41,095 bases of DNA, taken from positions 1 to 41,095 of IMG/VR virus record IMGVR_UViG_3300035199_000786. One strand, 5' to 3'. This DNA is from a virus. The translations under genes were made by a program, and so were the position numbers. This document shows, one piece after another, positions 9,872-39,924 of this stretch (the stretch's first letter is position 1; the number at the start of each line of letters is the position of its first letter). A model generated the notes under the pieces. The model was not told the DNA's origin, did no database searches, and saw only the letters and a program-made list of their open reading frames with translations.

Positions 9872-11164
9872 ATGGCTTTCCGCAAGTTTGGGCCAAATGA
9901 TGTTAATATAAATACGATGAAGGCTCACCCAAAGAGTGAGTTTGTCATCTATGATGGAGATGTATATTATAATAACAGCGCCGTTCACTCTGGCAATTGG
10001 GTTGGAAACATTACAGAGCTTGAGCCCGGGTTCATAAGCCTATATGAATATAATATAGACAGAACTGCCGGCATTTTCGGCTCCGGATCCGGCGCCCGCG
10101 AGTACCTCTTGAATGATGGTAAAAACCCACTCATCTTTCCCTTCATCTCTAAAGACAGTTCGCGCATCAGCATTCAGTCAGCTATTGGTGGTATATCCAC
10201 CACGGTGTTTAATAATGAATTTGCATATGGAGATCAGCTATCCGGAGCATACCCTCAATATGCATCGATTACGCGGGAACCCATAGACACGCCATCTGCC
10301 CTTCCGTTTTCTGAAAAAATGAGTTTTGTGTCCTTAGAAAATACTTTGAATCTTTATGGAGTCAACAGCCAACATTATGTTGTAAGCTCATCGGCTTATG
10401 GCGATAAAACAGACCAGTTTTTAAATTTAATTCATATTCCATCAATATTTTACGGTACTAAAATAAAGCCCGGGACCATTTGCTTAAGGATGTATCACAC
10501 TGGAACTCTGATTGGCGAATGTCGCGACACAAAGGAGAACGGCGAGCTAATTCAAACGTATGGTCAGTGGTATGTTCCTGTTGCTGGTGACTGGATCGAC
10601 AACACAGACAGTGTCGCCGGCGTTGCTTTATATGATGAGGGGTTTTTGCTTCTTACTGGCTCGTGGCCATTGGACGACACAGGCATTGGGGCGATCAGCC
10701 CAGGGCCCGCCCGCCAGTTCCCGAGATGGATATATTTTGGAGCCGGCTCTAACGATGGAATCGCAGATGCATCTTATACTGGCGGCGGCGCCTCTAGATT
10801 TGATGATATATCTTTCAGTCTTTCTTTCGAAGGGCAGACGGACACACAGATCGTAACGATGATTGCACATGCAAAACGCGGCCAAGCCAATTTCTCTCAT
10901 AACCCAACCTTTCTTGAAAAAAATCAAGAACAGCTATATTATACTTCTTCTCATGTATACGAGGAGAATCCATCACGCACAATAAAAAACACAGTAAGCT
11001 CCAGCTATAGTGATTATAGCGCTTCCTTTAAAAGACAGGTATACATTTCTAAAATTGGAGTGTATGATAGTGATAAGAACTTGATCGGAATTGCTTCCCT
11101 TGCTGACCCAGTATTGAAAGAAGAAGACGAAGACCTGACATTTAAAATCAAACTGGATATCTGA
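9872..11164 (+). CDS. virion structural protein, C-terminal RVRLDY family, copy 2
   Basis: 430 residues, paralogous to 8764-9870 through the C-terminal module (about residues 310-430). The N-terminal half differs and may carry the specific function. It has high Ser, Tyr, Gly and Ile, with no membrane helix. Its stop overlaps the start of the resolvase gene (TGATG at 11162-11166), so translation of the resolvase is probably coupled to this structural gene. Likely a tail or fibre component; no adhesin or enzyme motif is seen. Confidence 0.65.
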   Translation: MAFRKFGPNDVNINTMKAHPKSEFVIYDGDVYYNNSAVHSGNWVGNITELEPGFISLYEYNIDRTAGIFGSGSGAREYLLNDGKNPLIFPFISKDSSRISIQSAIGGISTTVFNNEFAYGDQLSGAYPQYASITREPIDTPSALPFSEKMSFVSLENTLNLYGVNSQHYVVSSSAYGDKTDQFLNLIHIPSIFYGTKIKPGTICLRMYHTGTLIGECRDTKENGELIQTYGQWYVPVAGDWIDNTDSVAGVALYDEGFLLLTGSWPLDDTGIGAISPGPARQFPRWIYFGAGSNDGIADASYTGGGASRFDDISFSLSFEGQTDTQIVTMIAHAKRGQANFSHNPTFLEKNQEQLYYTSSHVYEENPSRTIKNTVSSSYSDYSASFKRQVYISKIGVYDSDKNLIGIASLADPVLKEEDEDLTFKIKLDI

Positions 11165-11733
11165 TGATTCTCGGAATAGACATTTCTACCAGCATAACTG
11201 GATTTGCCGTTGTTGGTGATGGACAATTGCTACATTACAGTTCGGTTGACTTGCGCAAGCACAAGGGCATTTTTGCAAAAGCCGAGGCTATTCGAGAGTA
11301 TATCGCTGATTTTTTTGAAAATTATCAACTTGATCAGGAAAATTCTGGCTGGGGAAATTCGCCACACCCCATCCAGCATATTTATATCGAACAACCGCTA
11401 CATATGTTCATGAAAGGCAAGTCATCCGCAAAAACATTGTCATCTTTAATGACGTTTAATGGGGTGGTTTCATGGCTTGTATACGAGCTTTTTGAGATAG
11501 AGCCTCAGTATATTTCAGCATCTTCGGCCCGAAAGCGTGCAGGGATTAAGGTACCCCGGGGCACTAAAGCGAAGCAAGTCGTATTAGAACATTTAATAAA
11601 AACTGAGCCAGCATTTAAAATAGAGTATACGACCTACGGAAACCCAAAGCCCGAGACCTATGATCGCGCCGACGCAATTATAATTGCCAAAGCCGGCTTC
11701 GCGATTGAAAAAGAAAAAGATATTGACTCCTGA
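11164..11733 (+). CDS. RuvC-like Holliday junction resolvase
   Basis: 189 residues, close to the usual length of RuvC (about 170). It has the RNase H-like fold signature: strand MILGIDISTSITGFAVV with D6, strand IYIEQPL with E76, and a C-terminal helix YDRADAIIIAKAG with D167 and D170. These match the acidic residues that bind metal in RuvC. Such enzymes cut four-way DNA junctions; in large phages this resolves replicating DNA before packaging, the job endonuclease VII does in T4. The start codon overlaps the stop of the upstream structural gene. The promoter for the primase lies across its last codons. A function as a flap or branch nuclease is also possible. Confidence 0.8.
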   Translation: MILGIDISTSITGFAVVGDGQLLHYSSVDLRKHKGIFAKAEAIREYIADFFENYQLDQENSGWGNSPHPIQHIYIEQPLHMFMKGKSSAKTLSSLMTFNGVVSWLVYELFEIEPQYISASSARKRAGIKVPRGTKAKQVVLEHLIKTEPAFKIEYTTYGNPKPETYDRADAIIIAKAGFAIEKEKDIDS

Positions 11734-11765: not shown

Positions 11766-12707
11766 ATGAACAAGAAAGAAGCCTTAAAGGTCTTACATGA
11801 AGTTATTGGAGACCACCGCCAAACCAGCAAGAACGAGCATTATTTCAAATGCCCTGAATGCGATCACTACAAGTATAAGCTCGCTATTAATTTGGATAAA
11901 AATGCTTTTCATTGTTGGGTTTGTGATTATCGGGGTCGTAATATTAGGCGCCTTATTAGACGTTTTGGTTCGTTTATCCAACTACAGAAATGGGACTCAA
12001 TATCGGACAGGACAGATCTTGAAAGATTTGCTGACCTCTTTGTGGAACGAAGCAGTGAAAGAAGCAAAACAAAAGTGGAACTCCCAGAGGAATTCCGAAG
12101 CCTCTGCGCAGAAAACATCCCAGCAACAGGCGCCTATGCCTTAAAATATCTGGAGAAAAGAGGCCTCACCAGATCAGATATTTTAAAGTGGAAGATTGGA
12201 TATTGCTTTAGTGGAGAGTATAGGAATAGAATTATAGTTCCTTCTTTCGACGAGGATGGCGATTGTAGCTACTTTATCGCCAGATCCTATACAGGGGACT
12301 CCTATAAGTATAAAAACCCATCAGCGTCCAAGGATGTAGTGTTTAATGAGCTATTTATTAACTGGAACGAAGACTTAACATTAGTAGAAGGAGTATTTGA
12401 TGCCATTGTCTGCGGAAATGCGGTACCAATCCTGGGTTCAACCTTGCGCCCGGGATCCGATTTATTACGAAAGATTGTATACAACGACACCCCGATCTAT
12501 ATCGCACTCGACCCCGACGCTGCCGCCAAAGAAAGGCGCATTATTAAGATGTTGCTGGAATATGATATTGAACTTTACAAGATCGATGTTTCGGGGTACG
12601 AAGACATAGGTTCGATGTCCAAAGAGACCTTCGAGGAAAGAAAGAATAACGCTTCCTTTATCGATAGAGATAACTATTTACTGTTGAATTTGTTATCAGC
12701 AGTCTAA
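11766..12707 (+). CDS. DnaG/T4 gp61-like DNA primase
   Basis: 313 residues. An N-terminal zinc-binding domain has C29-x2-C32 and C50-x2-C53. A TOPRIM catalytic domain follows, with LTLVEGVFDAI (E208, D212) and ALDPDAAAKER (D249, D251). This is the arrangement of bacterial-type primases that make RNA primers for lagging-strand synthesis. The protein lacks the long C-terminal helicase-binding domain of DnaG, and its size is close to T4 gp61. No helicase is visible in the window. A good sigma70-type promoter lies directly upstream, as expected for an early replication gene. Confidence 0.85.
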   Translation: MNKKEALKVLHEVIGDHRQTSKNEHYFKCPECDHYKYKLAINLDKNAFHCWVCDYRGRNIRRLIRRFGSFIQLQKWDSISDRTDLERFADLFVERSSERSKTKVELPEEFRSLCAENIPATGAYALKYLEKRGLTRSDILKWKIGYCFSGEYRNRIIVPSFDEDGDCSYFIARSYTGDSYKYKNPSASKDVVFNELFINWNEDLTLVEGVFDAIVCGNAVPILGSTLRPGSDLLRKIVYNDTPIYIALDPDAAAKERRIIKMLLEYDIELYKIDVSGYEDIGSMSKETFEERKNNASFIDRDNYLLLNLLSAV

Positions 12708-12718
12708 GGGCCCCACAC

Positions 12719-13027
12719 GTGAAGTTCACAAAAAAATATCTTAAGCAGATTATTAAAGAAGAGATTGCGGCTGTTTTAAGCGAAAAATCTAAAGAAGACG
12801 AAGTAGATCCATACGAGAGAGCCTTAGAGGCCCCTTTGGCGGAAGAAGATCTTGAAGAAGATAAGGACTGGATCCAGAAGGCGGTTAATCCAGATCACGA
12901 GGGAGACTGTACTCCGATGACAAAGAAGACGTGCACCCCTGCACGCAAGGCGTTAGCGAAACGTTTTAAGAAAGCAGCTAAGAAGAAGAAAAAGAAAGGC
13001 GGTACTGGCTGGCAAGGCAAGGTATAA
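12719..13027 (+). CDS. leader-A protein, Lys-rich internal protein candidate
   Basis: 102 residues with a GTG start at 12719. It opens with MKFTKKYLKQIIKEEI, the type A leader found on at least nine other genes here. A second (L/I)-x-E site follows (AVLSE). An acidic middle (residues 25-60) is followed by GDCTPMTKKTCTPARKALA and a C-terminus with runs of Lys, a plausible DNA-contacting tail. The proposed role is a protein packaged with DNA in the head, with the leader removed by the gp21-type protease. This is inference. It overlaps the next gene by one base (TAATG) and follows the primase after 11 bases. Confidence 0.7.
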   Translation: MKFTKKYLKQIIKEEIAAVLSEKSKEDEVDPYERALEAPLAEEDLEEDKDWIQKAVNPDHEGDCTPMTKKTCTPARKALAKRFKKAAKKKKKKGGTGWQGKV

Positions 13028-14165: not shown

Positions 14166-14176
14166 CCGGAGGATAT

Positions 14177-17100
14177 GTGAAGTTTGCCCATATTAGCGAC
14201 ACTCACATTAAAAATTTAAAATATCATTACGAGTATCGAGTAATTTTCGAACAGCTATATAAGAAGCTGCAAGAAGAGAAAGTCGATTACATCGTTCATT
14301 GTGGAGATATTGCTCATACAAAAACGCAAATATCTCCAGAGTACGTGGATATGTGCTCGCAGTTCTTTGAGAACCTTGCGAACATAGCCCCAACGTATGC
14401 TATTTTAGGCAATCATGACGGAAACTTAAAGAACAGTAGCCGTCAAGATGCCTTGACACCAATTTTTAATGCACTTAAACATCCGAACCTTCATTTGTTG
14501 AAAGAGTCCGGAGAAACAAATATCAACGATGAAGTGTGTTTAAATGTCTTATCGGTCTTTGATCGTGATAGTTGGATTAAACCGACCAACCCAGACAAGA
14601 TTAACATCGCTCTTTACCATGGATCCATCAGCAATTGCAAGACAGATGTTGGATGGGTTATGTTGAATGGCGAAGATACGATGGAGATTTTTGATGGATT
14701 TGATTTTGCTATGCTTGGCGATATCCATCGCCGTCAGATTCTTGATAAGGCCGGCCGCATTTGGTATGCCGGTAGCACTGTACAGCAAAACCACGGAGAA
14801 ACAAACGACAAGGGTATTCTTATCTGGGATATTCAATCAAAGGATGATTGGGATGTTGAGCCGATTGTGTTCAAGAATCCAAAGCCGTTCATTACGCTGG
14901 AACTCACACCGAAAGGCCGGATGCCCAAGGGTGCAAATGTCCCAGAGGGCGCCCGCCTTCGAATCGTAAGCCACAACAATCTGCCGCTTAACATTATGAA
15001 GCGCGCAATTGATATTGCAAAGCACCGATTTAAACCGGAGGTGGTAACCTTCTTGAATCGTGCGGCCGGCCAACGTGGAGATGTGACTGAGCTTACTGAC
15101 ACATTAAAAACCGAAAACCTGCGGGATATCAATATTCAAGAGGAGTTGATGGATGAGTATCTGAAAGACTTTCAGGTCGACTCTTCTACTATGGAAAGGG
15201 TGTACGAACTCAACCGCAAGTACAAGAAAGTAGTTGAGGACAATGATGACATTTCAAGAAACATTAATTGGAAATTGAGAAATCTTGAATTTGATAACTT
15301 ATTTAATTACGGAGAAAACAACAATGTACGCTTTGAGGAACTTAATGGGATTACAGGAATCTTTGGGAAGAACTTTTCTGGGAAGAGCAGCATTATTGAT
15401 GCTGTGCTGTGGACTCTTTTTAATACAACCTCGAAAAATGAGCGTAAGAATCTCAATGTTATTAACCAGAATAAGGAATCGTGCCGAGGAAAACTAACCA
15501 TTGACGTTGGCCATTTAACTTATACTATCGAAAGAACAGCAGAGAAATATACCAAACGGTTGAAAGGGGAGGAGACGCTGGAAGCCAAGACAGATCTTAA
15601 CTTTGAAGTTTATGATCAGGCCTCTGGCGACACCACGTCTCTCAATGGTTTAAGTCGAATTCACACGGACAACAACATTCGTCGACACTTTGGCGCCTCC
15701 GATGACTTCCTCATTTCTTCTATGGCATCTCAGCATGGTGCACTGGCTTTTATCGACGAAGGCTCAACTCGTCGAAAAGAAATCATTGCCAAGTTTCTTG
15801 ACTTGGAGATCTTCGAGAAGAAGTTCAAGCTGTCCAAGGACGACAGCACCGACCTTAAGGGCGCGCTAAAGCGCCTGGAATCGCGCAATTACGATGAAGA
15901 GATAGAAGAGGCCGCCGGAGAGCTAGGAGCCAAGAGGAGCGAACTGAGCGCCCACAAACAGGAGTGCGATAGTTTAAAATTGGAGATTGACTGTATAGCA
16001 ACAACTTGCGAAGAATTACGTAACAGCATCGAAGCGATACCCGAAGAAGTAATTAATGTTGTTGATACCAGGCGAGAGATCCGAAAGAAGCAGATCCAGA
16101 TTGCGTCTTTAGAAAGCGAGAACAAACAGTACGCTGTTGATTTGAGTGTCAAGCGAGGCTTATCTGAAAAGATAGAAGAGTATTTAAATAAAATAAATAT
16201 TAAAACTTTAGTAGAGCAACAGGAATTAATCGACGGTTTGGGATCCCAAAAGAGCGAGCAAGAAAGCGCGCTAGCCAGTCTGCTCCAGGAAATGGAAGAC
16301 ATCGAACGCAAAGCTTCGCTTCTAGAAGGTATTCCGTGCGGAATTGAATTTCCTCAATGTAAATTCATCCGAGATGCAAATGTTGCAGTGGCCAACTTAC
16401 CACACGTAGAAGAAAAACGTGGCCACTCGGAAGCAAACATTAACACAATTAACAAAAAGATGCAGAGTCTCCGGCCCGATTTTGTGGCAGAGCAAATTGA
16501 TAAGCACACAAAGATCGTTGACAGAAGAACGAATCTGACAAACGAGATAGCTGACTTTAATTTGTCTATGGAAAAGAATCAGACGTCCATCGAACGCTTG
16601 GGGTATGAATTGAAAGATTTAGAAAACAAAAGAAAGATGTACGAAGAAAACAAGGAAGCTATTGAAAACTTTGAAGAGTTTACAACGGAACTTGATGCCT
16701 GCAATGCTAAGTTAGAAAAAGCAGAGGCCCAACATGAGCTTTGTCAAGAACAAACGCTTGAACTCTATAAGGAAGTTGGTTCAATGGAACAAAAAGTAGA
16801 AAGCGTCCGAGAACAAAAGCAAGAATATGTAGACTTACAAGAGGAATATTCAGCTTATGATCTTTATATGCGGTGCATGCACACCTCGGGGATTGCTTAC
16901 GATATTATTAAGAGAAAACTCCCAGTTATCAATCAGGAGATAGCGAAAGTTCTTGCGAATATTGTAGACTTTGAAATCTTTTTTGAGGATTCCGGAAAGA
17001 AATTTGATATTTTTATTAAGCACCCTCGGCATGAAGCACGTCCCATTGAGATGGCTTCCGGCGCAGAAAAAACTTTGTGCGCCATGGCACTTCGTTTGGC

Positions 17101-17326
17101 TCTTTTGAGTGTCTCGTCACTACCTAAGAGCGATTTATTTATCCTCGATGAGCCGGGCACAGCGCTCGACGAAGAAAATATGGAGGGTTTTATTAGGATA
17201 TTGGAACTAATTAAAGTATATTTTAAGAACGTTTTGCTTATCTCACACCTTGATTCGCTCAAAGACTGTGTTGACATGCAAATTGTAATCGAAAAGAAAT
17301 CAGGATACGCTAGAGTTAATCAATAG
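14177..17326 (+). CDS. fused Mre11-Rad50 (SbcD-SbcC, T4 gp47-gp46) nuclease-ATPase
   Basis: 1049 residues in one uninterrupted frame from a GTG at 14177 (GGAGGA at 14168-14173). Residues 1-220 are an Mre11/SbcD metallophosphatase: D8, H10, D44, GNHD (78-81), H148 and GDIH (181-184). Residues about 270-355 fit the Rad50-binding helices of Mre11. Residues 366-1049 are Rad50/SbcC: Walker A GKNFSGKS (397-404), long coiled coil (about 545-900), signature ASGAEKT, and Walker B with FILDEPG (D991, E992). The hook at the coil tip has C721 and C728 separated by six residues rather than the usual CxxC. In T4 the two subunits are separate and process DNA ends for recombination-dependent replication. A single chain enforces 1:1 stoichiometry. 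Confidence 0.88.
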   Translation: MKFAHISDTHIKNLKYHYEYRVIFEQLYKKLQEEKVDYIVHCGDIAHTKTQISPEYVDMCSQFFENLANIAPTYAILGNHDGNLKNSSRQDALTPIFNALKHPNLHLLKESGETNINDEVCLNVLSVFDRDSWIKPTNPDKINIALYHGSISNCKTDVGWVMLNGEDTMEIFDGFDFAMLGDIHRRQILDKAGRIWYAGSTVQQNHGETNDKGILIWDIQSKDDWDVEPIVFKNPKPFITLELTPKGRMPKGANVPEGARLRIVSHNNLPLNIMKRAIDIAKHRFKPEVVTFLNRAAGQRGDVTELTDTLKTENLRDINIQEELMDEYLKDFQVDSSTMERVYELNRKYKKVVEDNDDISRNINWKLRNLEFDNLFNYGENNNVRFEELNGITGIFGKNFSGKSSIIDAVLWTLFNTTSKNERKNLNVINQNKESCRGKLTIDVGHLTYTIERTAEKYTKRLKGEETLEAKTDLNFEVYDQASGDTTSLNGLSRIHTDNNIRRHFGASDDFLISSMASQHGALAFIDEGSTRRKEIIAKFLDLEIFEKKFKLSKDDSTDLKGALKRLESRNYDEEIEEAAGELGAKRSELSAHKQECDSLKLEIDCIATTCEELRNSIEAIPEEVINVVDTRREIRKKQIQIASLESENKQYAVDLSVKRGLSEKIEEYLNKINIKTLVEQQELIDGLGSQKSEQESALASLLQEMEDIERKASLLEGIPCGIEFPQCKFIRDANVAVANLPHVEEKRGHSEANINTINKKMQSLRPDFVAEQIDKHTKIVDRRTNLTNEIADFNLSMEKNQTSIERLGYELKDLENKRKMYEENKEAIENFEEFTTELDACNAKLEKAEAQHELCQEQTLELYKEVGSMEQKVESVREQKQEYVDLQEEYSAYDLYMRCMHTSGIAYDIIKRKLPVINQEIAKVLANIVDFEIFFEDSGKKFDIFIKHPRHEARPIEMASGAEKTLCAMALRLALLSVSSLPKSDLFILDEPGTALDEENMEGFIRILELIKVYFKNVLLISHLDSLKDCVDMQIVIEKKSGYARVNQ

Positions 17327-19221: not shown

Positions 19222-20373
19222 ATGTCAGACGAAAAAGAAAATAACGAAGATAAAAACGAATTTGATTTTCTGCCTCCCGCAGAACCACCTCCCGCGTTCG
19301 CGCAGGAAAAAGACAGCTACCACGAATCAGTAGAAGCAGAAGACTTCGGCATGGTAGAGGATTTCGGATTACAGATGGAATACTCTGATGAAGATTTACT
19401 CCCCGAGAACACTGCGCCTTCTTCGATCAATATCGGCTTTGTCGGGGTTGGCGGTGGAGGCAACAAAATGGCGAATGCGTTCATTGAACTTGGATTCAAT
19501 AAAACGCTACTCGTAAACTCAACCGGAAAGGATATTCCGAAGAATGTTGAAGAGGACCACGTCGTTTTAATTCCCGATTCTGACGGAATCGGAAAGAATG
19601 TAGAATATGGAAAAGAGGTTTTAAGTCAAAATGGTGCGATTATTGAAGATGCCCTGCGTATCAAGCTCGGTAAAGTTGATTGGTTATTCGTCCTTGCTGG
19701 CGGTGGTGGTGGTACCGGTAGCAGTGTTACCGCTCTGCACCCTGTCTTTGAGCGTTACATGCGCTCTGTGCAGTCGAGTGGCAAGGTCGTTTACATAGTC
19801 TCATGGCCGACAGCACAAGAAAACCTTAACCCCACAATCGCTCGTAATGCGTTGACGCTGGCAAATGATGTTGCCAGGCACCCGCATATCATTCTCGACA
19901 ATGAACGAGCCACTCGCTTACTTCGCGGCAGAATCGGCATGCTCGGCATGTATCCTGTCGCCAACACACAATTTGCTAAGTCGTTCGCCCAAGTTTTAAA
20001 ACTCTCCACCGAGGATTCACCGATCCAATCTTTCGATAGTAAAGATCTGGAAACATGCTTGGGCAATGACGGTCGTGCCTTCTTAGGCTCAACCATGATT
20101 AAGGATCCAAATACTGGAAAGCTTGGATCGGTGATCCTTCATAACTGCATGAATCGTTCTGCATGTCCTCCACCGAAAGGTAAGGCAGCTGCAGGTTCGT
20201 TGGTGCTGGTTGTGTCGGAAGAGATGGTGGCTGATCCAAAGGTCAGTAAGAACATTGAGTCGGCAATTGCTTATGTCGGCGGTCGATGCGAGACACTTTT
20301 CTCTGGCGTTTACGTCCGAAAGAATGTGCCCGGATTGATTGCGATACTAAGCATGAATGGATTAGCAACATAA
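19222..20373 (+). CDS. FtsZ/tubulin-like GTPase
   Basis: 383 residues. An acidic, Pro-rich extension (1-68) precedes a GTPase domain: GFVGVGGGGNKMANAF (72-87) as the phosphate loop T1, then the tubulin signature loop LAGGGGGTGSSV (158-169), and a segment FDSKDLETCLGNDGRAFLGS (271-290) that aligns with the FtsZ T7 loop NxDFADVxxxM...GxAMMG. D272 and D275 occupy the DxxD positions that complete the GTPase site of the neighbouring subunit. Polymerising, GTP-hydrolysing activity is therefore plausible. Phage tubulins (PhuZ, TubZ) position DNA, while an FtsZ mimic could interfere with host division. Unlike its neighbours it carries no A, B or C leader, so it probably acts in the cell. Confidence 0.8.
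   Translation: MSDEKENNEDKNEFDFLPPAEPPPAFAQEKDSYHESVEAEDFGMVEDFGLQMEYSDEDLLPENTAPSSINIGFVGVGGGGNKMANAFIELGFNKTLLVNSTGKDIPKNVEEDHVVLIPDSDGIGKNVEYGKEVLSQNGAIIEDALRIKLGKVDWLFVLAGGGGGTGSSVTALHPVFERYMRSVQSSGKVVYIVSWPTAQENLNPTIARNALTLANDVARHPHIILDNERATRLLRGRIGMLGMYPVANTQFAKSFAQVLKLSTEDSPIQSFDSKDLETCLGNDGRAFLGSTMIKDPNTGKLGSVILHNCMNRSACPPPKGKAAAGSLVLVVSEEMVADPKVSKNIESAIAYVGGRCETLFSGVYVRKNVPGLIAILSMNGLAT
20346..20371 (+). repeat. 26-base direct repeat, copy 1
   Basis: These 26 bases, at the 3' end of the FtsZ-like gene, recur at 20680-20705 with a single mismatch (C at 20352, T at 20686). In this copy they encode the last residues (LSMNGLAT) of the GTPase. The repeat pair brackets the leader-A gene 20385-20684. 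Confidence 0.9.
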
Positions 20374-32048: not shown

Positions 32049-32657
32049 GTGGGTAAAGTTTTATTAAGAGAATATTACGAATTATGCGAAGGCGGCGTTT
32101 GCCAGGATCTTTTAACGGAGGCCGAGAAGCGCTTCGTTGCCGAGGGAGGAATGATACTCTCGGGCATTATGCAAAAGGCAGACACTCAAAATGGGAATGG
32201 TCGCATTTATCCTTCCCGCGTTTTGATGCGCGAGGTGGAAAACTATAAGAAGCTCGTTAAAGAACGCCGCGCCCTCGGCGAACTCGATCACCCAGATGAT
32301 TCAGTCATCAATCTTAGGAATGCGTCCCACATGGTCACAGAGGTGTGGACTGAAGGAAAGGACGTGATGGGGAAGGTGCAAGTATTGGACACCCCATCAG
32401 GCGGCATTTTGCGTTCGTTAGTGGAGTCCGGTGTTAAGCTGGGCATCTCATCCCGAGGCATGGGGTCGGTCACTGAAAGCGCCGGCCAAACTATCGTAGA
32501 GGACGATTTTCAATTGATTTGTTTTGATTTTGTTTCTGAGCCTTCCACGCCCGGGGCCTATATGATGAAAGAGTCCAAGAATTTGAGCGATCCAAACGTC
32601 TTCACCAAAGGCGATCGTATCAATAGATTATTAAATGAAGTCCTTAGTGAAGATTAA
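32049..32657 (+). CDS. g21: prohead core protease (T4 gp21-like)
   Basis: 202 residues from a GTG at 32049. It has the fold of herpes-type/U9 prohead proteases: NGNGRIYP (48-55), GELDHPDD with catalytic His81, and LGISSRGMGSV with Ser at 134-135. T4 gp21 has about 212 residues and cleaves scaffold, capsid and internal proteins after (L/I)-x-E, then leaves the head. That specificity matches the ends of leaders A, B and C in this window (I-K-E, L-N-E, L-H-E), making this the probable processing enzyme for the tagged proteins. It lies 12 bases after the membrane gene. Confidence 0.92.
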   Translation: MGKVLLREYYELCEGGVCQDLLTEAEKRFVAEGGMILSGIMQKADTQNGNGRIYPSRVLMREVENYKKLVKERRALGELDHPDDSVINLRNASHMVTEVWTEGKDVMGKVQVLDTPSGGILRSLVESGVKLGISSRGMGSVTESAGQTIVEDDFQLICFDFVSEPSTPGAYMMKESKNLSDPNVFTKGDRINRLLNEVLSED

Positions 32658-33391: not shown

Positions 33392-33784
33392 ATGGCAACA
33401 GATTTTGAAACGTCTTGGATCATGAATGTTGGGATTAACAACGTTGCGTCATACCAAGTAAGCGGTCGACCATTCGCATCGGGCGGCATAGATTGCAGCG
33501 CCGCGGCAGAGAAAGTACTATTTCCAACTCTTACGAGATGGATCGTTGTACAAAACAATGTAGATAAAGCGCTGAAAGTGGGATACTCCAAAAATGGTGT
33601 TGATACCGACATGTATTATACGGTCCAATCCGGATCATCTGCACGTCTCGAAGTGAAGGTGGGAGAGATCTGGTTAAAGGGCTCATCTAACTGCGATGTT
33701 GCGGCAGGCCTAACCTCGATTGACAGAGTTAGAGCTAGCGGTTCTTACGGTCCAAGCTGGTCAGGTTCGTCAGGGGTAGGATAA
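33392..33784 (+). CDS. small structural protein candidate
   Basis: 130 residues; CGGAGG gives a strong start. The composition is beta-rich (Val, Gly, Ser, Thr, Tyr), with a Ser/Gly-rich end, and no membrane helix. It opens MATDFETSWIMNVGINNVASY. The centre reads like a single beta-sandwich domain (RWIVVQNN...LKVGYSKNG...ARLEVKVGEIWLKG). It is the first gene of the fibre cluster. Capsid decoration or fibre accessory protein are both possible. Confidence 0.6.
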   Translation: MATDFETSWIMNVGINNVASYQVSGRPFASGGIDCSAAAEKVLFPTLTRWIVVQNNVDKALKVGYSKNGVDTDMYYTVQSGSSARLEVKVGEIWLKGSSNCDVAAGLTSIDRVRASGSYGPSWSGSSGVG

Positions 33785-33788
33785 GCCC

Positions 33789-34484
33789 ATGGCAAAGTTT
33801 GGCTGGGCATATATAGATTGCGGCGATTCCGGAAGTAACGATGGAGGCGCCTACGGACCGACTGGATCGGTTCAGTTTATGAGCGGCGCTGGTAATACCA
33901 GCGGCACTATCAACTTTATGTATCATAGCTCGTCTGTGAACTCAGGTGACTTTACAGCCAATACTCTGGTTTTGACTGGAACTTTGGTTGTCTCCGGTAC
34001 CATCTCGGCTAGCCATTATCACATTAAGGACATCGCGGAGATCGGCTCCACCGGCTCCACCTATTTTGGCGATAGCAATGGTGATGTACATGCCCGTACT
34101 GGAAGTTTATATGTCGGAAAAGTGGGCCTCAGTCCCACCTTCACAGTCGACTCTAATAATGATCAGGCGTATTCCACCGGAGTCCGCGGAATGTATACCG
34201 CGGTCACTGCGACGGGCATCACCTCTTCTAATGCGAGCTATATTTATGGTGTGACGCAGACTGGTGATGTGGAAATCAGGATTCATAGCGCTTCCGTTGC
34301 ACAAGCCGGCGCAGTCTATGTCATTAAAGATCAGGTGACTTCGAGAACGGGCGACATTACCCTGTATGGATCCGTCGGTGGCAGTGGCACTGAAACTATT
34401 GACGGTGAGATTTCCTATGTCTTGAGCGGCGACATGCCGGCAATTAGTTTGTATTCAAATGGTAGTAACTGGTTCGTCTTCTAA
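33789..34484 (+). CDS. fibre-like structural protein with repeat and tip module
   Basis: 231 residues. A GPTGSVQF motif near residue 25 is followed by strand repeats including TLVLTGTLVVSGTISASHYHIKD, the LTG..SG..SAS pattern common in phage fibres. The C-terminal 80 residues (TSSNASYIYGVTQ to GSNWFVF) form a module also seen at the ends of the next four proteins: (aromatic/T) - VIKDQ - TIDG - S.YSNGS.WFVF. It lies four bases after the previous gene. A fibre or head-decoration role is inferred from composition and the shared module. Confidence 0.65.
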   Translation: MAKFGWAYIDCGDSGSNDGGAYGPTGSVQFMSGAGNTSGTINFMYHSSSVNSGDFTANTLVLTGTLVVSGTISASHYHIKDIAEIGSTGSTYFGDSNGDVHARTGSLYVGKVGLSPTFTVDSNNDQAYSTGVRGMYTAVTATGITSSNASYIYGVTQTGDVEIRIHSASVAQAGAVYVIKDQVTSRTGDITLYGSVGGSGTETIDGEISYVLSGDMPAISLYSNGSNWFVF

Positions 34485-34506
34485 TTATAGAAAGAGGGAA
34501 CCGTGA

Positions 34507-35547
34507 ATGGCATACAATAACCTATCTGGAACAGTATATCTCCCGGATAACTTGATTACAAGGATCGATGTCCTTACTAATTCTATTGTATCGGGTAATC
34601 TTAGCTACTCCGATGGCGCCGACATTATTAATGTACCACGCGTGGCCACCCCCAATGCAAATAGTCTTGTTATCAACAATAACGGGAATGCAAATAACTT
34701 ACGATGTGACACAGAACTGACCTTTGACGGTACCACTTTGTCAATTGTCGGCAACCTAACTGCCAGCATCAATATATCGGCCTCTTCGTTTTATGGAGAC
34801 GGCAGCAACTTGACAGGGATCTCCGCCGGCGGTGGAGGCACCGGTGGCGGGATTTTCACAGAGATTAACGCAACCAAGGCGTACACCACCAGCAGTGTTC
34901 AAATAGGCTCTTCTGCTACTCCGGCCCATACGATGTCGGTCGAGGGAACCACGTTGTTGAGTGGCGCCGTTGATGTTGATGGTGCCATTGTGCCCGTTAC
35001 TGGCGATACCTACGATCTCGGAAGCTCCGATAACCCATGGCGAAACCTGTATATCTCCAGCAGTACCATTTACTTTGGCACAGACACGCTTAGTGTGGGA
35101 GCCGACAATAATCTTAAGTTTGGCTCAGGGAGCACCACGAAGGGGTTTGATGTCGGATTCATGAATTTTAAAAATAATGGCATCTTCATGGACGAAGGGA
35201 GGCTCTTCAAACTAAGAGCATATCAAACTCAAATATTTGGAGGAATAGGGTATGTTCGCGCTACTGTTTCAAACAATTATACAATCAAAGATGTAGATTA
35301 CCTTATTGGAGTAAAATCAAACCTTTTAGATAGTACCATTGTCTTAACCCTTCCTGCAGCATCTACATTGTTAAATGGTCAGACATTTATCATTAAAGAT
35401 GAGGGTGGCGAGCTGGACACCTATCCTTTGACAATTTCGTGCGGTGGAACCGACACAATCGATGATCAAAATTCAATAATTTTAGAATCACCCTATGCTT
35501 CTATTTCGATTTATTGTGATGGGACCGGAAAGTACTACGCCTTCTAG
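34507..35547 (+). CDS. fibre-like structural protein, MAYN family
   Basis: 346 residues. It begins MAYNNLSGTVYLPDN, an N-terminal motif shared with three downstream proteins, likely a common attachment segment. ASINISASSFYGDGSNLTGI (about 86-105) is a classic phage fibre repeat. The C-terminal module (about 258-346) reads TLPAASTLLNGQTFIIKDEG, then TIDDQNSIIL, then SISIYCDGTGKYYAF. The middle contains a PVTGDTYDLGSSDNPWRNLYISSSTIYFG unit typical of side-fibre proteins. A trimeric fibre is likely; which virion part it decorates is unknown. Confidence 0.7.
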   Translation: MAYNNLSGTVYLPDNLITRIDVLTNSIVSGNLSYSDGADIINVPRVATPNANSLVINNNGNANNLRCDTELTFDGTTLSIVGNLTASINISASSFYGDGSNLTGISAGGGGTGGGIFTEINATKAYTTSSVQIGSSATPAHTMSVEGTTLLSGAVDVDGAIVPVTGDTYDLGSSDNPWRNLYISSSTIYFGTDTLSVGADNNLKFGSGSTTKGFDVGFMNFKNNGIFMDEGRLFKLRAYQTQIFGGIGYVRATVSNNYTIKDVDYLIGVKSNLLDSTIVLTLPAASTLLNGQTFIIKDEGGELDTYPLTISCGGTDTIDDQNSIILESPYASISIYCDGTGKYYAF

Positions 35548-35569
35548 TCTCTCCAAGCTTTCTGTTAGA

Positions 35570-35580
35570 CTACTTATAAG
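35570..35580 (+). promoter_or_regulatory. candidate phage late promoter element CTACTTATAAG
   Basis: The motif CTACTTATAAG lies in the 126-base gap between 35547 and 35674. It would start a transcript carrying a long leader with a stable hairpin (35580-35637). It shares CTACTTAT with the sites at 38175 and 39974. Confidence 0.4.
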
Positions 35581-35637
35581 TGGACGGGCACTTTGTATTA
35601 TAACTTTTCGGAGGATTGGTGCGTCTTGCCTGTCCGC
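35580..35637 (+). other. 5'-leader hairpin with Shine-Dalgarno in loop
   Basis: Bases 35580-35590 (GTGGACGGGCA) pair with 35627-35637 (TGCCTGTCCGC) through 11 base pairs, two of them G-U. The 36-base loop contains CGGAGGA. There is no U-tract, so it is not an intrinsic terminator. It lies directly after a candidate promoter and before the gene at 35674. It could protect the mRNA end or regulate translation; no known riboswitch is recognised. Confidence 0.5.
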
Positions 35638-35673
35638 CAAATATAAAACTTATAATATGGAGGGTTTTTAAAT

Positions 35674-36915
35674 ATGGCTTATAAATATCAATTAGGTACT
35701 GCTATCCTTAGTGGTGCCCTTTCTCCCGGTACTAACAATTCTTTTGATCTCGGCAAAGCCTACGTCAGCGACACCGACCCCGGTGCTGCATGGAATGATT
35801 TGTACCTCAGCGGTACGGCTTATGTCGTTACTCTGGGTACGTCTGGCGATCCGGTCGACACCGCAAACCTTGTGGCGCTCACCGCCACCGGTACTTCAAC
35901 TTTGACTACTGTGAAGGCAGGCACACTCTCTGGTTCTTCTACCTTAGATGTGGATGGTAACGCTAGCCTTAACGCCAACTTGGATGTTAAAGGTACTATC
36001 GTTAACTTCCCGAATGTTGCGGCCGCAGGGATGGATCCTGCTGACCTAATCGTGTCTCTTGATTCTACATCCAAGGACATGCAGCTTCGTACTCGTACGA
36101 GCTTTGTTACCGATCTGGCTGGTACTGTTACCACCACGGGGCTTAAGGACGTCACAGGCGTTCTGGCTATTGACATCGACAGCCTCGATGGCGCGCAAGC
36201 GATTGCCACTGGCGATACTATCATGTTCAATGATGATGGCGATAACGGTCTTCAGAAGGAAACCGTTGACGATCTGTTCGCTCTTGGACCCGCGCTTACT
36301 GCCGAAACAGCCATGACCGTGGCTGACGATTATATCACTTTCCTTGATGGCGGCGCCTCTGGTGCTTGCAAGAAAGAATCGTGGTCTGATCTTATGGGAT
36401 TAACGGCAGCTAGCGGTATTGCGGCTAGCGCTGGTACTCTTGTGCTTAGCGGTTCTACTCTAGCTGCTGCTACTGTCGATGGCGCCACCGATTCCTTGTC
36501 GTTCTTCGACTATTCGGCTGGCGGCGCAGCCAAGGTTGAAACCATTGCTGACTTTGTGGATGCCATGGCTGGTTCTGGCCTTACCGCAGTCGCTGGTGTT
36601 CTGTCTTCTGACGCGTCCCCGACGCCGACTGATCACGGAAACAACAACGCGACACTTGTACAGGGCTTTAACTTTAGTTCGGTAGTCTTTGGCACCTCTG
36701 CCAAAACTTGGACGCTTCCAGCGTCCCCGGACCTCGGTGACACTGTTACCGTTAAGGCTCCATCTAACGCGTCGGATTTCGCGCTCACGATTGCAGGTGC
36801 TGGTGGTTATACCATTGATGGTGAAGCTTCAATTATCATTGATTCGGATTATGGTGCTGTTGCATTAGTTGCTGCTAGTGGTTCTACCACTGGTGTTGAC
36901 TGGTACATCAAGTAA
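35674..36915 (+). CDS. probably abundant fibre or decoration protein, MAYN family
   Basis: 413 residues, opening MAYKYQLGTAILSGA. It contains three tandem units of about 25 residues (starting near 180, 218 and 272) of the form D-x-I-x-F-x-D-x-x-x-x-G-x-x-K-x-E-x-x-x-D-L, separated by LxxSGSxL stretches. The C-terminal module (about 335-413) has TLPASPDLGDTVTVKAPSNA, then YTIDGEASIII and DWYIK. It uses GGT, GCT, CGT, CTT and ACT/ACC codons much more than its neighbours, and it has its own candidate promoter, structured leader, GGAGGG site (35659-35664) and strong terminator. Together these suggest the most highly expressed structural gene in the window. Confidence 0.7.
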   Translation: MAYKYQLGTAILSGALSPGTNNSFDLGKAYVSDTDPGAAWNDLYLSGTAYVVTLGTSGDPVDTANLVALTATGTSTLTTVKAGTLSGSSTLDVDGNASLNANLDVKGTIVNFPNVAAAGMDPADLIVSLDSTSKDMQLRTRTSFVTDLAGTVTTTGLKDVTGVLAIDIDSLDGAQAIATGDTIMFNDDGDNGLQKETVDDLFALGPALTAETAMTVADDYITFLDGGASGACKKESWSDLMGLTAASGIAASAGTLVLSGSTLAAATVDGATDSLSFFDYSAGGAAKVETIADFVDAMAGSGLTAVAGVLSSDASPTPTDHGNNNATLVQGFNFSSVVFGTSAKTWTLPASPDLGDTVTVKAPSNASDFALTIAGAGGYTIDGEASIIIDSDYGAVALVAASGSTTGVDWYIK

Positions 36916-36954
36916 TCTATTGCTATATCTTTTGAAAGCTTTGCTTTCATTTGT

Positions 36955-36986
36955 GGATGCCCCCCTGGTGGGGGCATCCTTTTTAT
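36955..36986 (+). terminator. strong Rho-independent terminator
   Basis: GGATGCCCCC (36955-36964) and GGGGGCATCC (36970-36979) form a perfect 10-base-pair stem with a five-base loop, followed by TTTTTATTT. It is 40 bases after the stop of 35674-36915. A smaller hairpin, GAAAGC-TTT-GCTTTC, sits just upstream (36934-36948). It is the only convincing intrinsic terminator seen. Confidence 0.92.
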
Positions 36987-37009
36987 TTATGAGTTTGCCG
37001 ATGAATAAT

Positions 37010-37020
37010 CTATTTACTGG
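37010..37020 (+). promoter_or_regulatory. candidate phage late promoter element CTATTTACTGG
   Basis: The motif lies between the strong terminator and the ATG at 37036, 15 bases before the start. A gene directly after a terminator needs its own promoter, so this copy is one of the better supported. Confidence 0.42.
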
Positions 37021-37035
37021 TGAAGGGGAAACAAT

Positions 37036-38163
37036 ATGGCCTATAATGTTTTAAAAGGCACCGTAGAAGGTTCGGTAGATCAGCATGCAGATCAGGACAT
37101 CGAAGGGGTAAAGGTATTTAAAAATACCATAAGCGCTAGCGTATTCTACGATACCGACGCACAAAGCCCTTGCGCTACCTTAAAGGATGTAGCAGTAAAC
37201 AACATTGAGAATGCCACCAAACATGGAGTTGTGACGTTTAAAGAAGCCGGCGGCCTTCGCGTCGAGCCATCTCTTACCTTTCGAGATAATACGTTGCATG
37301 TTCGAAATATTGAAGCATCGCTCTTTAAAGGCTCAGCAGAAAAGATGATTAATTTGCCAGGCGAGCAGATCTGCGGCACCATAGATGCCAAGCACATAGG
37401 CCATGCAGCCGGCCTTCACGTCGTCCGTGGCCAATTACAAGTTAAATGTGGCCCAGGCATAACCCTCGAAGAGAATAATGTCAGCGTGGCGCTTTCTTCG
37501 GCTGGCGGCCTCGGAATGAAAGAAGGCGCTCTTGTAATCGATCCTAATAAGGCACAAAGTATTAATACCGATGGCCAAAACCTAAGCGACAACGACTTGC
37601 TGCTCATTGCGGACACGTCACACAACACGATACGGAACACCACTTTAAAAAATCTTTATGAAAAATATGTAAAAGTGAAGATGCCAGAGGCTTCGGGCGC
37701 CCTTAACCATGTTCAACTAAAAGGCCGCTCAGGTTTTGCGTCTTCTCCAAAATTAGTGTATGATGATAGTAAAAATACCTTAAATGTAGAAGGTAAAATT
37801 TCTACAACAAATATAGATATTGATAATCTCTTGAGATGCCGCGGCAGCATATCCGCCAATATTAAAACTATTGTGGGGGAGTACTACGAAGTCGAAGACA
37901 CAGACTATACCATTTTGTGCGATTCAATCAAGACGCCGATCACCGTGATGCTCCCGCCGGCATGCAACCACGTGGGCAGAATTCTGAACATTAAGAAGAC
38001 TAACCAAAATAAATATAGTTTAAGATCTTTTCCTGTGGCTATAAAGGTCTCCGAAGGCCTTATAGATATAGGTACCGATATTACTATGAAAATGAATTAC
38101 TCCTCGCGAACTATTCAATCAGATGGTAAAAATTGGTGGGTAATAGGTTCAAAGGGAACTTAA
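37036..38163 (+). CDS. fibre-like structural protein, MAYN family
   Basis: 375 residues, opening MAYNVLKGTVEGSVDQHADQ. The middle has short strand repeats (TISASVFYDTDAQ; LHVRNIEASLFKGSAEKMINLPG), and a DNDLLLIADTSHNTIRNTTLKNLYEKY segment similar to the DxxxFxD...KxExxxDL units of the protein at 35674. The C-terminal module (about 285-375) runs YEVEDTDYTILCDSIKTPIT, then LPPACNHVGRILNIKK, then a terminal WWVIGSKGT. It is less Gly/Thr-rich and more charged than its relatives. A fibre role is inferred. Confidence 0.68.
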   Translation: MAYNVLKGTVEGSVDQHADQDIEGVKVFKNTISASVFYDTDAQSPCATLKDVAVNNIENATKHGVVTFKEAGGLRVEPSLTFRDNTLHVRNIEASLFKGSAEKMINLPGEQICGTIDAKHIGHAAGLHVVRGQLQVKCGPGITLEENNVSVALSSAGGLGMKEGALVIDPNKAQSINTDGQNLSDNDLLLIADTSHNTIRNTTLKNLYEKYVKVKMPEASGALNHVQLKGRSGFASSPKLVYDDSKNTLNVEGKISTTNIDIDNLLRCRGSISANIKTIVGEYYEVEDTDYTILCDSIKTPITVMLPPACNHVGRILNIKKTNQNKYSLRSFPVAIKVSEGLIDIGTDITMKMNYSSRTIQSDGKNWWVIGSKGT

Positions 38164-38174
38164 AGAGTACAAAA

Positions 38175-38185
38175 CTACTTATGAT
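38175..38185 (+). promoter_or_regulatory. candidate phage late promoter element CTACTTATGAT
   Basis: The motif lies in the 36-base gap before the ATG at 38200 and just ahead of AAAGGAAA (38187-38194). It matches the sites at 35570 and 39974. Confidence 0.38.
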
Positions 38186-38199
38186 AAAGGAAACAGAAA

Positions 38200-39924
38200 A
38201 TGGCATACAACACTTCTAAAGGCTCTCGCGAACTAGGAGATATTGAGTACGAGGGGGATCCCTCTGATACCCAGATTGATTTTGAAGCAGATTTTATCGC
38301 TCTCAAGACGGGCGGCGTTCATAGATTTATAGTATCTGGTTCGGCCATTACATCTTCATTAGCTTTTTCAGCCTCTTCTGACTTATATGCGGGCGCTTTC
38401 CATGGTGACGGTACCGCGCTTACGGGCGTAGGAACTATGACTTCCATAGGCTTAAAAGGCGATGGGGGCCCAACACAGACGATTGCTGACGAAAATATAA
38501 TCTATGTTTCAGGTGGCACAGGAATTACAACAACAGCAGCTGCAACTGATACGGTATCAGTCGCGCTCGATAACACCGCGGTCAGCGCAGGATCATATAC
38601 ATATTCGGCAATCACTGTTGACGCGCAAGGTCGTTTGACCGCTGCAAGTACCGGTACGGGCCCATCCGTAACCACCTATAACAATGCGGTTGATAATTAT
38701 CTCTTGACCTCTGCCGGCGCTGCTTCTATTAATGGAGAAGCCAATCTGACATTTGATGGCACTGATTTGGTGGTGGTGGGGAATGCGTCTGCATCGCTGG
38801 GCATCACCGGCTCTGCCTTATACACAGCCACAACCACCATTGACACCACCCACGTGTCAAGTTCTCTTAATATTTCTGGCGCCGCTTTTTACGGAGATGG
38901 TGCAAACCTGTCCAATCTCCCAGACCCAGCTATTGTGACATACGGCAATGCAGCGCAATATAGAGTTTTAATTGGAAGCACCGCCACCGACGCCGTGAAT
39001 GGCGCCACCAACTTGAGTTTTAATACGTCCACGAATAAATTGGATCTGCTCGGCGATATGTCAGCCTCAGTGAACATTTCCGCCTCTTCTTTCTATGGTG
39101 ACGCCACCAACATGACGGGACTCCCAGTTGCTCCCATTAGCAATTATAATAATGCAGCGGTTAATCGGGTAATTACCTCGGTCGACGCGAGCACGGTCCA
39201 AGGAGAAGCCAATCTTACTTTTAATGGTAATGCCATGGTGCTGGCCGGTACCTTAACAGCAACCAGCGCCAGCAATCCTGTCGCCCAATTTGTACATCCT
39301 GGTGATAATGCCGTTGGCGCCGTCCTGGAGTTAATAAACAGTAGAGACGGAAATCCCGGACAAGCAGATGATTTTTGTGGAGGCGTGGCGTTTAAATCTA
39401 AAGATTCTACATCCGCCGCGACACAATACAGCAAGATAAGTACCAAAATAGGATCCCCCACCAACACTAGCGAGGCCGGTTATATGCTATTCGAAGTAAC
39501 AACGGGGGGCACTTCTGGCACTACCTACTTAAGATTGGACGGAGCTACTAACGCCGCGACCTCATCCGTAAACACCAAAATTGAAGGTGTGACTCATTTG
39601 AGCGGCGCGGTCCGCTCTATGTATGCCTATAAAACGTCCGACTATACCCTAACATCGGCCGATCATATTGTGGTCTTCAATGCCTCATCAGCGACTACCG
39701 GCACGCTGCCCACCATAGATCCATCTGTAGACGGCATTACTTGTACAGTGAAGAGTATCGGCACCAGCAATGTTAAGATAACTGGCGCCGCTGGCTTGGA
39801 CCAATTTATCGACGCTCAGCAATCTTTCATAATTGAACAAGGCGATGCAGTTACTCTTCTGGGGTATGCGGGCAACTATGGCTTTGAATGGTCAGTCATA
39901 AACTTTTATAACATGGTACCTTAA
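38200..39924 (+). CDS. long fibre-like structural protein, MAYN family
   Basis: 574 residues, opening MAYNTSKGSRELGDIEYEG. It has at least three fibre repeats of the form N-L-x-F-(D/N)-G-x-x-L-x-V-x-G-x-x-x-A-S-x-x-I-(S/T), each followed by SxxYGDGxNLxxLP (near 195-245, 265-310, 325-355). TGITTTAAATDTVSVAL and FSASSDLYAGAFHGDGTALT are also typical of phage side fibres. The C-terminal module (about 475-574) has TLTSADHIVVFNASSA, then TLPTIDPSVDGITCTVKSIG, then FEWSVINFY. It is the longest in the family and a good candidate for a projecting fibre. Confidence 0.7.
   Translation: MAYNTSKGSRELGDIEYEGDPSDTQIDFEADFIALKTGGVHRFIVSGSAITSSLAFSASSDLYAGAFHGDGTALTGVGTMTSIGLKGDGGPTQTIADENIIYVSGGTGITTTAAATDTVSVALDNTAVSAGSYTYSAITVDAQGRLTAASTGTGPSVTTYNNAVDNYLLTSAGAASINGEANLTFDGTDLVVVGNASASLGITGSALYTATTTIDTTHVSSSLNISGAAFYGDGANLSNLPDPAIVTYGNAAQYRVLIGSTATDAVNGATNLSFNTSTNKLDLLGDMSASVNISASSFYGDATNMTGLPVAPISNYNNAAVNRVITSVDASTVQGEANLTFNGNAMVLAGTLTATSASNPVAQFVHPGDNAVGAVLELINSRDGNPGQADDFCGGVAFKSKDSTSAATQYSKISTKIGSPTNTSEAGYMLFEVTTGGTSGTTYLRLDGATNAATSSVNTKIEGVTHLSGAVRSMYAYKTSDYTLTSADHIVVFNASSATTGTLPTIDPSVDGITCTVKSIGTSNVKITGAAGLDQFIDAQQSFIIEQGDAVTLLGYAGNYGFEWSVINFYNMVP

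Follow-up and report, generated by a model that had tools for sequence, protein, structure and literature searches.

Mre11, a nuclease, and Rad50, an ATPase, are the two halves of a universal machinery for processing DNA breaks. Does a single phage gene encode both subunits of the Mre11-Rad50 complex, and if so, what would the resulting protein do? We analyzed a 41 095-nucleotide stretch of virus DNA (IMG/VR record IMGVR_UViG_3300035199_000786; hereafter the window, to which positions refer). At 14177–17326 it carries one open reading frame with a GTG start, encoding 1049 aa and preceded by a GGAGG ribosome-binding site (14168–14172); this gene, its parts and the two upstream neighbors described below lie on the plus strand. 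An earlier note, made from the sequence alone, had read the frame as Mre11 joined to Rad50. Our main reading, to which we assign a probability of about 0.85, is that of a phage Mre11-Rad50 (SbcCD, gp47-gp46) complex in one chain, of the Mimivirus R555 type, with a role in end processing for recombination.

Domain architecture of the fused protein

The marine phage protein runs from an Mre11 phosphodiesterase through a cap, Rad50-binding helices and an 8-residue linker into a complete Rad50 with Walker A, coiled coil, cysteine hook, signature and Walker B. Pfam assigned residues 1–184 to Metallophos and 367–1024 to SMC_N/AAA_23, an SbcC-like PHROGs family spans residues 304–1048, and every sequence search (Pfam, PHROGs, NCBIfam, PDB) returned Mre11/SbcD followed by Rad50/SbcC. 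The single 1049-residue frame claimed in the earlier note is thus borne out (ORF call, Pfam, PHROGs, independent contigs), and the gp47-gp46 order that it gave to the halves is correct. An AlphaFold2 model built from 42 relatives (mean pLDDT 74, pTM 0.38) is weak at the Walker A loop and in much of the C-lobe, and its overall confidence is only moderate. It lays out the phosphodiesterase, the cap, a helix-loop-helix (318–356), the Rad50 N-lobe from 365, arms of roughly 170–185 residues and the C-lobe. Foldseek gave matches of probability 1.00 to SbcD/Mre11 and to Mre11-Rad50 structures; the N-terminal part resembles solved SbcD and Mre11, and the top matches also included Rad50 chains of the Mre11-Rad50-Nbs1 complex.

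The phosphodiesterase domain (aa 1–230, 14177–14866; Pfam Metallophos, invariant columns in 42 sequences, SbcD/Mre11 fold match) contains the full set of calcineurin-like phosphoesterase motifs (DxH, GD, GNHD/E, H, GHxH) expected of Mre11/SbcD, found in alignment columns as D8/H10, GD44, H47, GNHD 78–81, H148 and GDIH 181–184. Two positions are non-canonical: the last motif is GDIH for GHIH, with Asp replacing the first His, and GDxxH stands where canonical Mre11 has GDxxD. Both changes (motifs V and II) are common to close members of the fused family. The D12 protein of Vibrio phage PG07 has GDxH too, so that Asp in the last motif counts as an accepted variant. The cap (approximately aa 231–300, 14867–15076; model secondary structure, Foldseek match to the SbcD nuclease and cap 7dog) and the C-terminal Rad50-binding helix-loop-helix (aa 318–356, 15128–15244; model helices 318–332 and 336–356) are present with moderate confidence in the predicted structure and Foldseek comparison. 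The model places the linker at aa 357–364 (15245–15268). The earlier estimate of a junction around residues 340–370 was good, as the modeled helices end at 356 and the first Rad50 strand begins at 365.

The Rad50 half opens with the N-lobe (15269–15766; Pfam AAA_23, alignment), which contains Walker A (G397KNFSGKSS405) and the Q-loop (Q519). An ascending coiled-coil arm of about 184 residues (aa 531–714, 15767–16318; model helices) leads to the apex hook, read from the sequence as C721-GIEFPQ-C728 (CX6C, 16337–16360), and a descending arm (aa 729–901, 16361–16879; AlphaFold2 model) returns to the C-lobe (16892–17323; Pfam, alignment) with the signature S961-G-A-E-K965, Walker B (LDE 990–992) and the H-loop (H1024). 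The Rad50/SbcC ATPase set (Walker A, Q-loop, ASGAEK signature, Walker B, H-loop) is therefore complete and split by a coiled coil. Metal-site and ATPase motifs were invariant or nearly so across 42 members of the fused family.

Gene neighborhood and proposed function

Two conserved neighbors lie upstream: a RuvC-like Holliday-junction resolvase (11164–11733; PHROG 159, in 39 marine loci) and a DNA primase (11766–12707; PHROG 47, upstream in 55 marine loci). Most loci with sufficient flanking sequence keep the order RuvC-primase-fusion, and a primase also precedes the fusion in the distant fused phages Mel-JY01 and LR756508 (L082 and L083). Ten larger relative records (102–204 kb) each gave one Rad50-family match, with no separate Rad50; in nine of the ten the fusion was the sole metallophosphatase, and nine of the ten carried a RecA-family recombinase. 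With a single Rad50 match and, in nine of ten records, no other metallophosphatase, the phage most likely has no end-processing enzyme of the Mre11-Rad50 kind besides the fusion, which by analogy would feed recombination-dependent replication. The same neighborhood bears on an improbable alternative, in which the main role is degradation of host DNA, or that of a defence or counter-defence nuclease, rather than replication or repair. According to their annotation, T4 gp46/47 are required both for recombination and for breaking down host DNA; the fusion gene, however, adjoins the primase and resolvase genes and is conserved as a single copy, and most relatives have a RecA-like recombinase.

By analogy with gp46/gp47 (SbcCD), the protein most likely performs ATP-gated end processing for recombination. 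We infer its dimerization, activity and role as follows. Two fused chains would pair into M2R2, with an Mre11 dimer at the base, the two Rad50 heads closing on ATP and the coiled-coil arms joined at the cysteine hook. On ATP hydrolysis the heads would open, giving DNA ends access to the Mre11 metal site, where, from family knowledge, ends and hairpins would be cut and trimmed to leave 3' tails; these would then pass to the phage RecA-like recombinase for recombination-dependent replication and repair. A single chain would remove the need for assembling two subunits. The fixed stoichiometry proposed in the earlier note does follow from the fusion, but is trivial, since split Mre11-Rad50 complexes are already M2R2. 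Counted against our main reading are the moderate AlphaFold model and the two non-canonical Mre11 positions, and our literature search found no biochemistry of the fused family.

Distribution and integrity of the fusion

An IMG/VR scan yielded 339 stretches encoding relatives of the fused protein. All of the best 80 were fused (53–86% identity) and unbroken except where contigs end inside the gene. A further scan, with Microcystis phage Mel-JY01 as seed, added 20 loci from a second, distant phage clade: 18 encoded one frame of 1008–1074 aa, a nineteenth (L102) an intact 1048-aa ORF, and in the remaining locus (L118) the break fell within the Mre11 domain rather than at the junction. The search for the same fusion in other phages that the earlier note had proposed thus found it in every one of the best IMG/VR relatives and in nearly all of the second clade.

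Across the junction (codons for residues 341–372, a short region), nonsynonymous change was low and synonymous change high or saturated. In 75 members, the junction showed no conserved internal start preceded by a ribosome-binding site, and so nothing to suggest that Rad50 is also made on its own. It is very unlikely that the chain is made whole and then cut by a phage protease into Mre11 and Rad50 subunits: the phage does encode a head maturation protease, a weak argument as such proteases act on head proteins, whereas the junction offers only 8 residues between modeled structured elements, no conserved internal start was found and the fusion is kept throughout a diverse family. An assembly or sequencing artefact, with a stop and a start between two genes in the real phage, has a negligible probability even though T4-like and SPO1-like phages as a rule have split gp47/gp46 neighbors, because the frame is unbroken in 80 independent contigs and in the annotated Mel-JY01, and selection acts across the junction. 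We therefore exclude the loss of a stop through sequencing error, and the join reported in the earlier note is a genuine one.

In a FastTree phylogeny of domain blocks (the fused set comprising marine, freshwater and huge-phage proteins), all sampled fused proteins formed one group with FastTree support of 1.0; the split gp47/gp46 pairs, taken from T4, cyanophages, Herelleviridae and T5-like phages, fell outside it. The grouping suggests a single origin of the fused proteins but, as split taxa were few and branches long, does not prove it. A genome contig search for cellular fusions gave three strong matches that look like phage DNA binned into MAGs. We inspected one (L088), the WOR-3 bacterial "chromosome" CP070664.1, which contains RuvC, a primase and a truncated fusion with runs of N at its bounds; this locus is phage sequence scaffolded into a MAG.

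Relation to known systems

The fusion class is not new, and the 1049-aa protein belongs to the published Mre11/Rad50 fusions. Yoshida, Claverie and Ogata (2011) described such fusions in Mimivirus (R555), a Bacillus phage, plasmids, bacteria and eukaryotes; beside R555 they listed twelve, including those of Bacillus phage 0305phi8-36 and of Clostridium kluyveri and Deferribacter plasmids (PMC3175470). The rarity implied by the earlier note is accordingly wrong: fusions have been published since 2011, one of them in a phage, and IMG/VR holds hundreds of family members. The same authors noted a gap of ~28 Å, bridgeable by 9–12 residues (PMC3175470). The earlier note had suggested that the fusion may change how the complex opens and closes; the very short linker found here fits the ordinary Mre11-Rad50 contact of that measured geometry rather than a new one. 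They also argued that abundant marine fusion homologs are phage genes, several scaffolds carrying phage primases (PMC3175470). With a RuvC-like resolvase and a primase upstream, our gene fits that forecast, and whole genes now confirm what they inferred from short marine reads, namely that R555-like fusions occur widely among marine phages, some of which have genomes of close to 200 kb.

R555 shares, by its published description, the single chain with Mre11 first and both active-site departures (GDxxH, and Asp for P. furiosus His206; PMC3175470), but is longer (1351 vs 1049 aa) and comes from a virus of amoebae. Mel-JY01 WWT39521 (an annotated fusion) and the huge phage LR756508 are likewise fused, with GDIH, about 30% full-length identity and a primase upstream; LR756501, another huge phage, is fused with GDIH, but only about 26% identical and with a longer open frame (1202 aa). 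All three group with the fused family on the tree (support 1.0), yet have CX2C instead of CX6C hooks. T4 gp47/gp46 and their cyanophage equivalents agree in gene order, domains and expected function, but are two proteins with small genes between them, GHFH/GHYH motifs and a CPTC hook. In the T5-like D12/D13 of Vibrio phage PG07, the Mre11 GDLH resembles the GDIH of the fused family, whereas the genes are two and overlapping, with a CPTC hook and GDxxD.

LR756508 (a 484-kb phage) further differs in that an endonuclease gene interrupts its Mre11 domain. About 1 kb is inserted directly after GDIHKRQ (L083:5570-6608) and encodes a TnsA-like endonuclease, probably a homing element; no Rfam family matched an intron there. 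In L118, a 26%-identical relative, two overlapping ORFs of 221 and 860 aa (L118:3313-6547) break close to where the LR756508 gene is interrupted in the Mre11 motif, with no endonuclease gene, possibly a remnant that gives a differently split enzyme. The single-chain Mre11-Rad50 offers a convenient system for structural and single-molecule work.

Variation of the cysteine hook

The CXXC zinc hook has been described for Rad50 from archaea to humans and viruses (PMC5093744), but the 1049-aa protein carries CX6C (C721, C728) instead. Among 75 non-identical marine members, 60 had CX6C (PCGxxxPxC; the count includes four in which His or Gln follows the second Cys) and 15 had CXXC; CX6C-like hooks are found in the distant L116 and L118 as well. 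The SbcC of Moorella phage MTATph1 lacks a CXXC hook, so this hook is not strictly defining for Rad50/SbcC. Parsimony placed nine hook changes on the tree vs about 22 with shuffled labels, which indicates that hook type is inherited, yet switches often. For example, L020 and L038, with different hook types, share 90–100% identity through most of the heads and about 45% at the apex, while a control pair of the same hook type (L033/L035) shares 82–92% at the apex. We found no clean donor for the swapped hooks, and the L020 coil is still closest to its CXXC sisters.

We tentatively propose, at odds somewhat short of even, that the fused family has two interchangeable hook forms, CXXC (YDPxCxxC) and an apparently undescribed CX6C (PCGxxxPxCKF), repeatedly exchanged between close relatives, and hence a swappable recognition module. 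A Rad50 chimera carrying an SMC hinge is functional in yeast, which makes a swappable dimerization tip plausible (PMC6969161). The CX6C hook, a possible zinc binder, and its switching between otherwise near-identical proteins may be the new element here. If true, hook swapping perhaps stops the complexes of co-infecting phages from cross-pairing, or tunes zinc dependence, and the two types in near-identical proteins would allow a direct test of what a Rad50 hook must do.

Other genes in the window

The product of 19222–20373 (383 aa) is a phage tubulin/FtsZ by sequence match (Pfam E 1.8e-8; PDB FtsZ E 1e-10) and is unusually conserved, at ~96–98% identity across 354 aa, where the fused nuclease of the same relatives reaches just 57–78%. 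Many ORFs, small in size, open with the leader MKITKSQLKQIIKEEI or a close variant (starts at 12719, 13027, 17329, 18724, 20286, 21566, 22923, 23204 and 23680), and a second, FENWNKFLNE-like leader is found on ORFs 17689, 20629 and 21107. These shared leaders resemble a capsid-targeting tag for internal head proteins; the head maturation protease lies at 32049. A run of ORFs at 33392–39924, several starting with MAYN/MAYK and with similar C-terminal ends (SNGSNWFVF, DGTGKYYAF, SDGKNWWVI), perhaps forms a family of repeated virion surface proteins.
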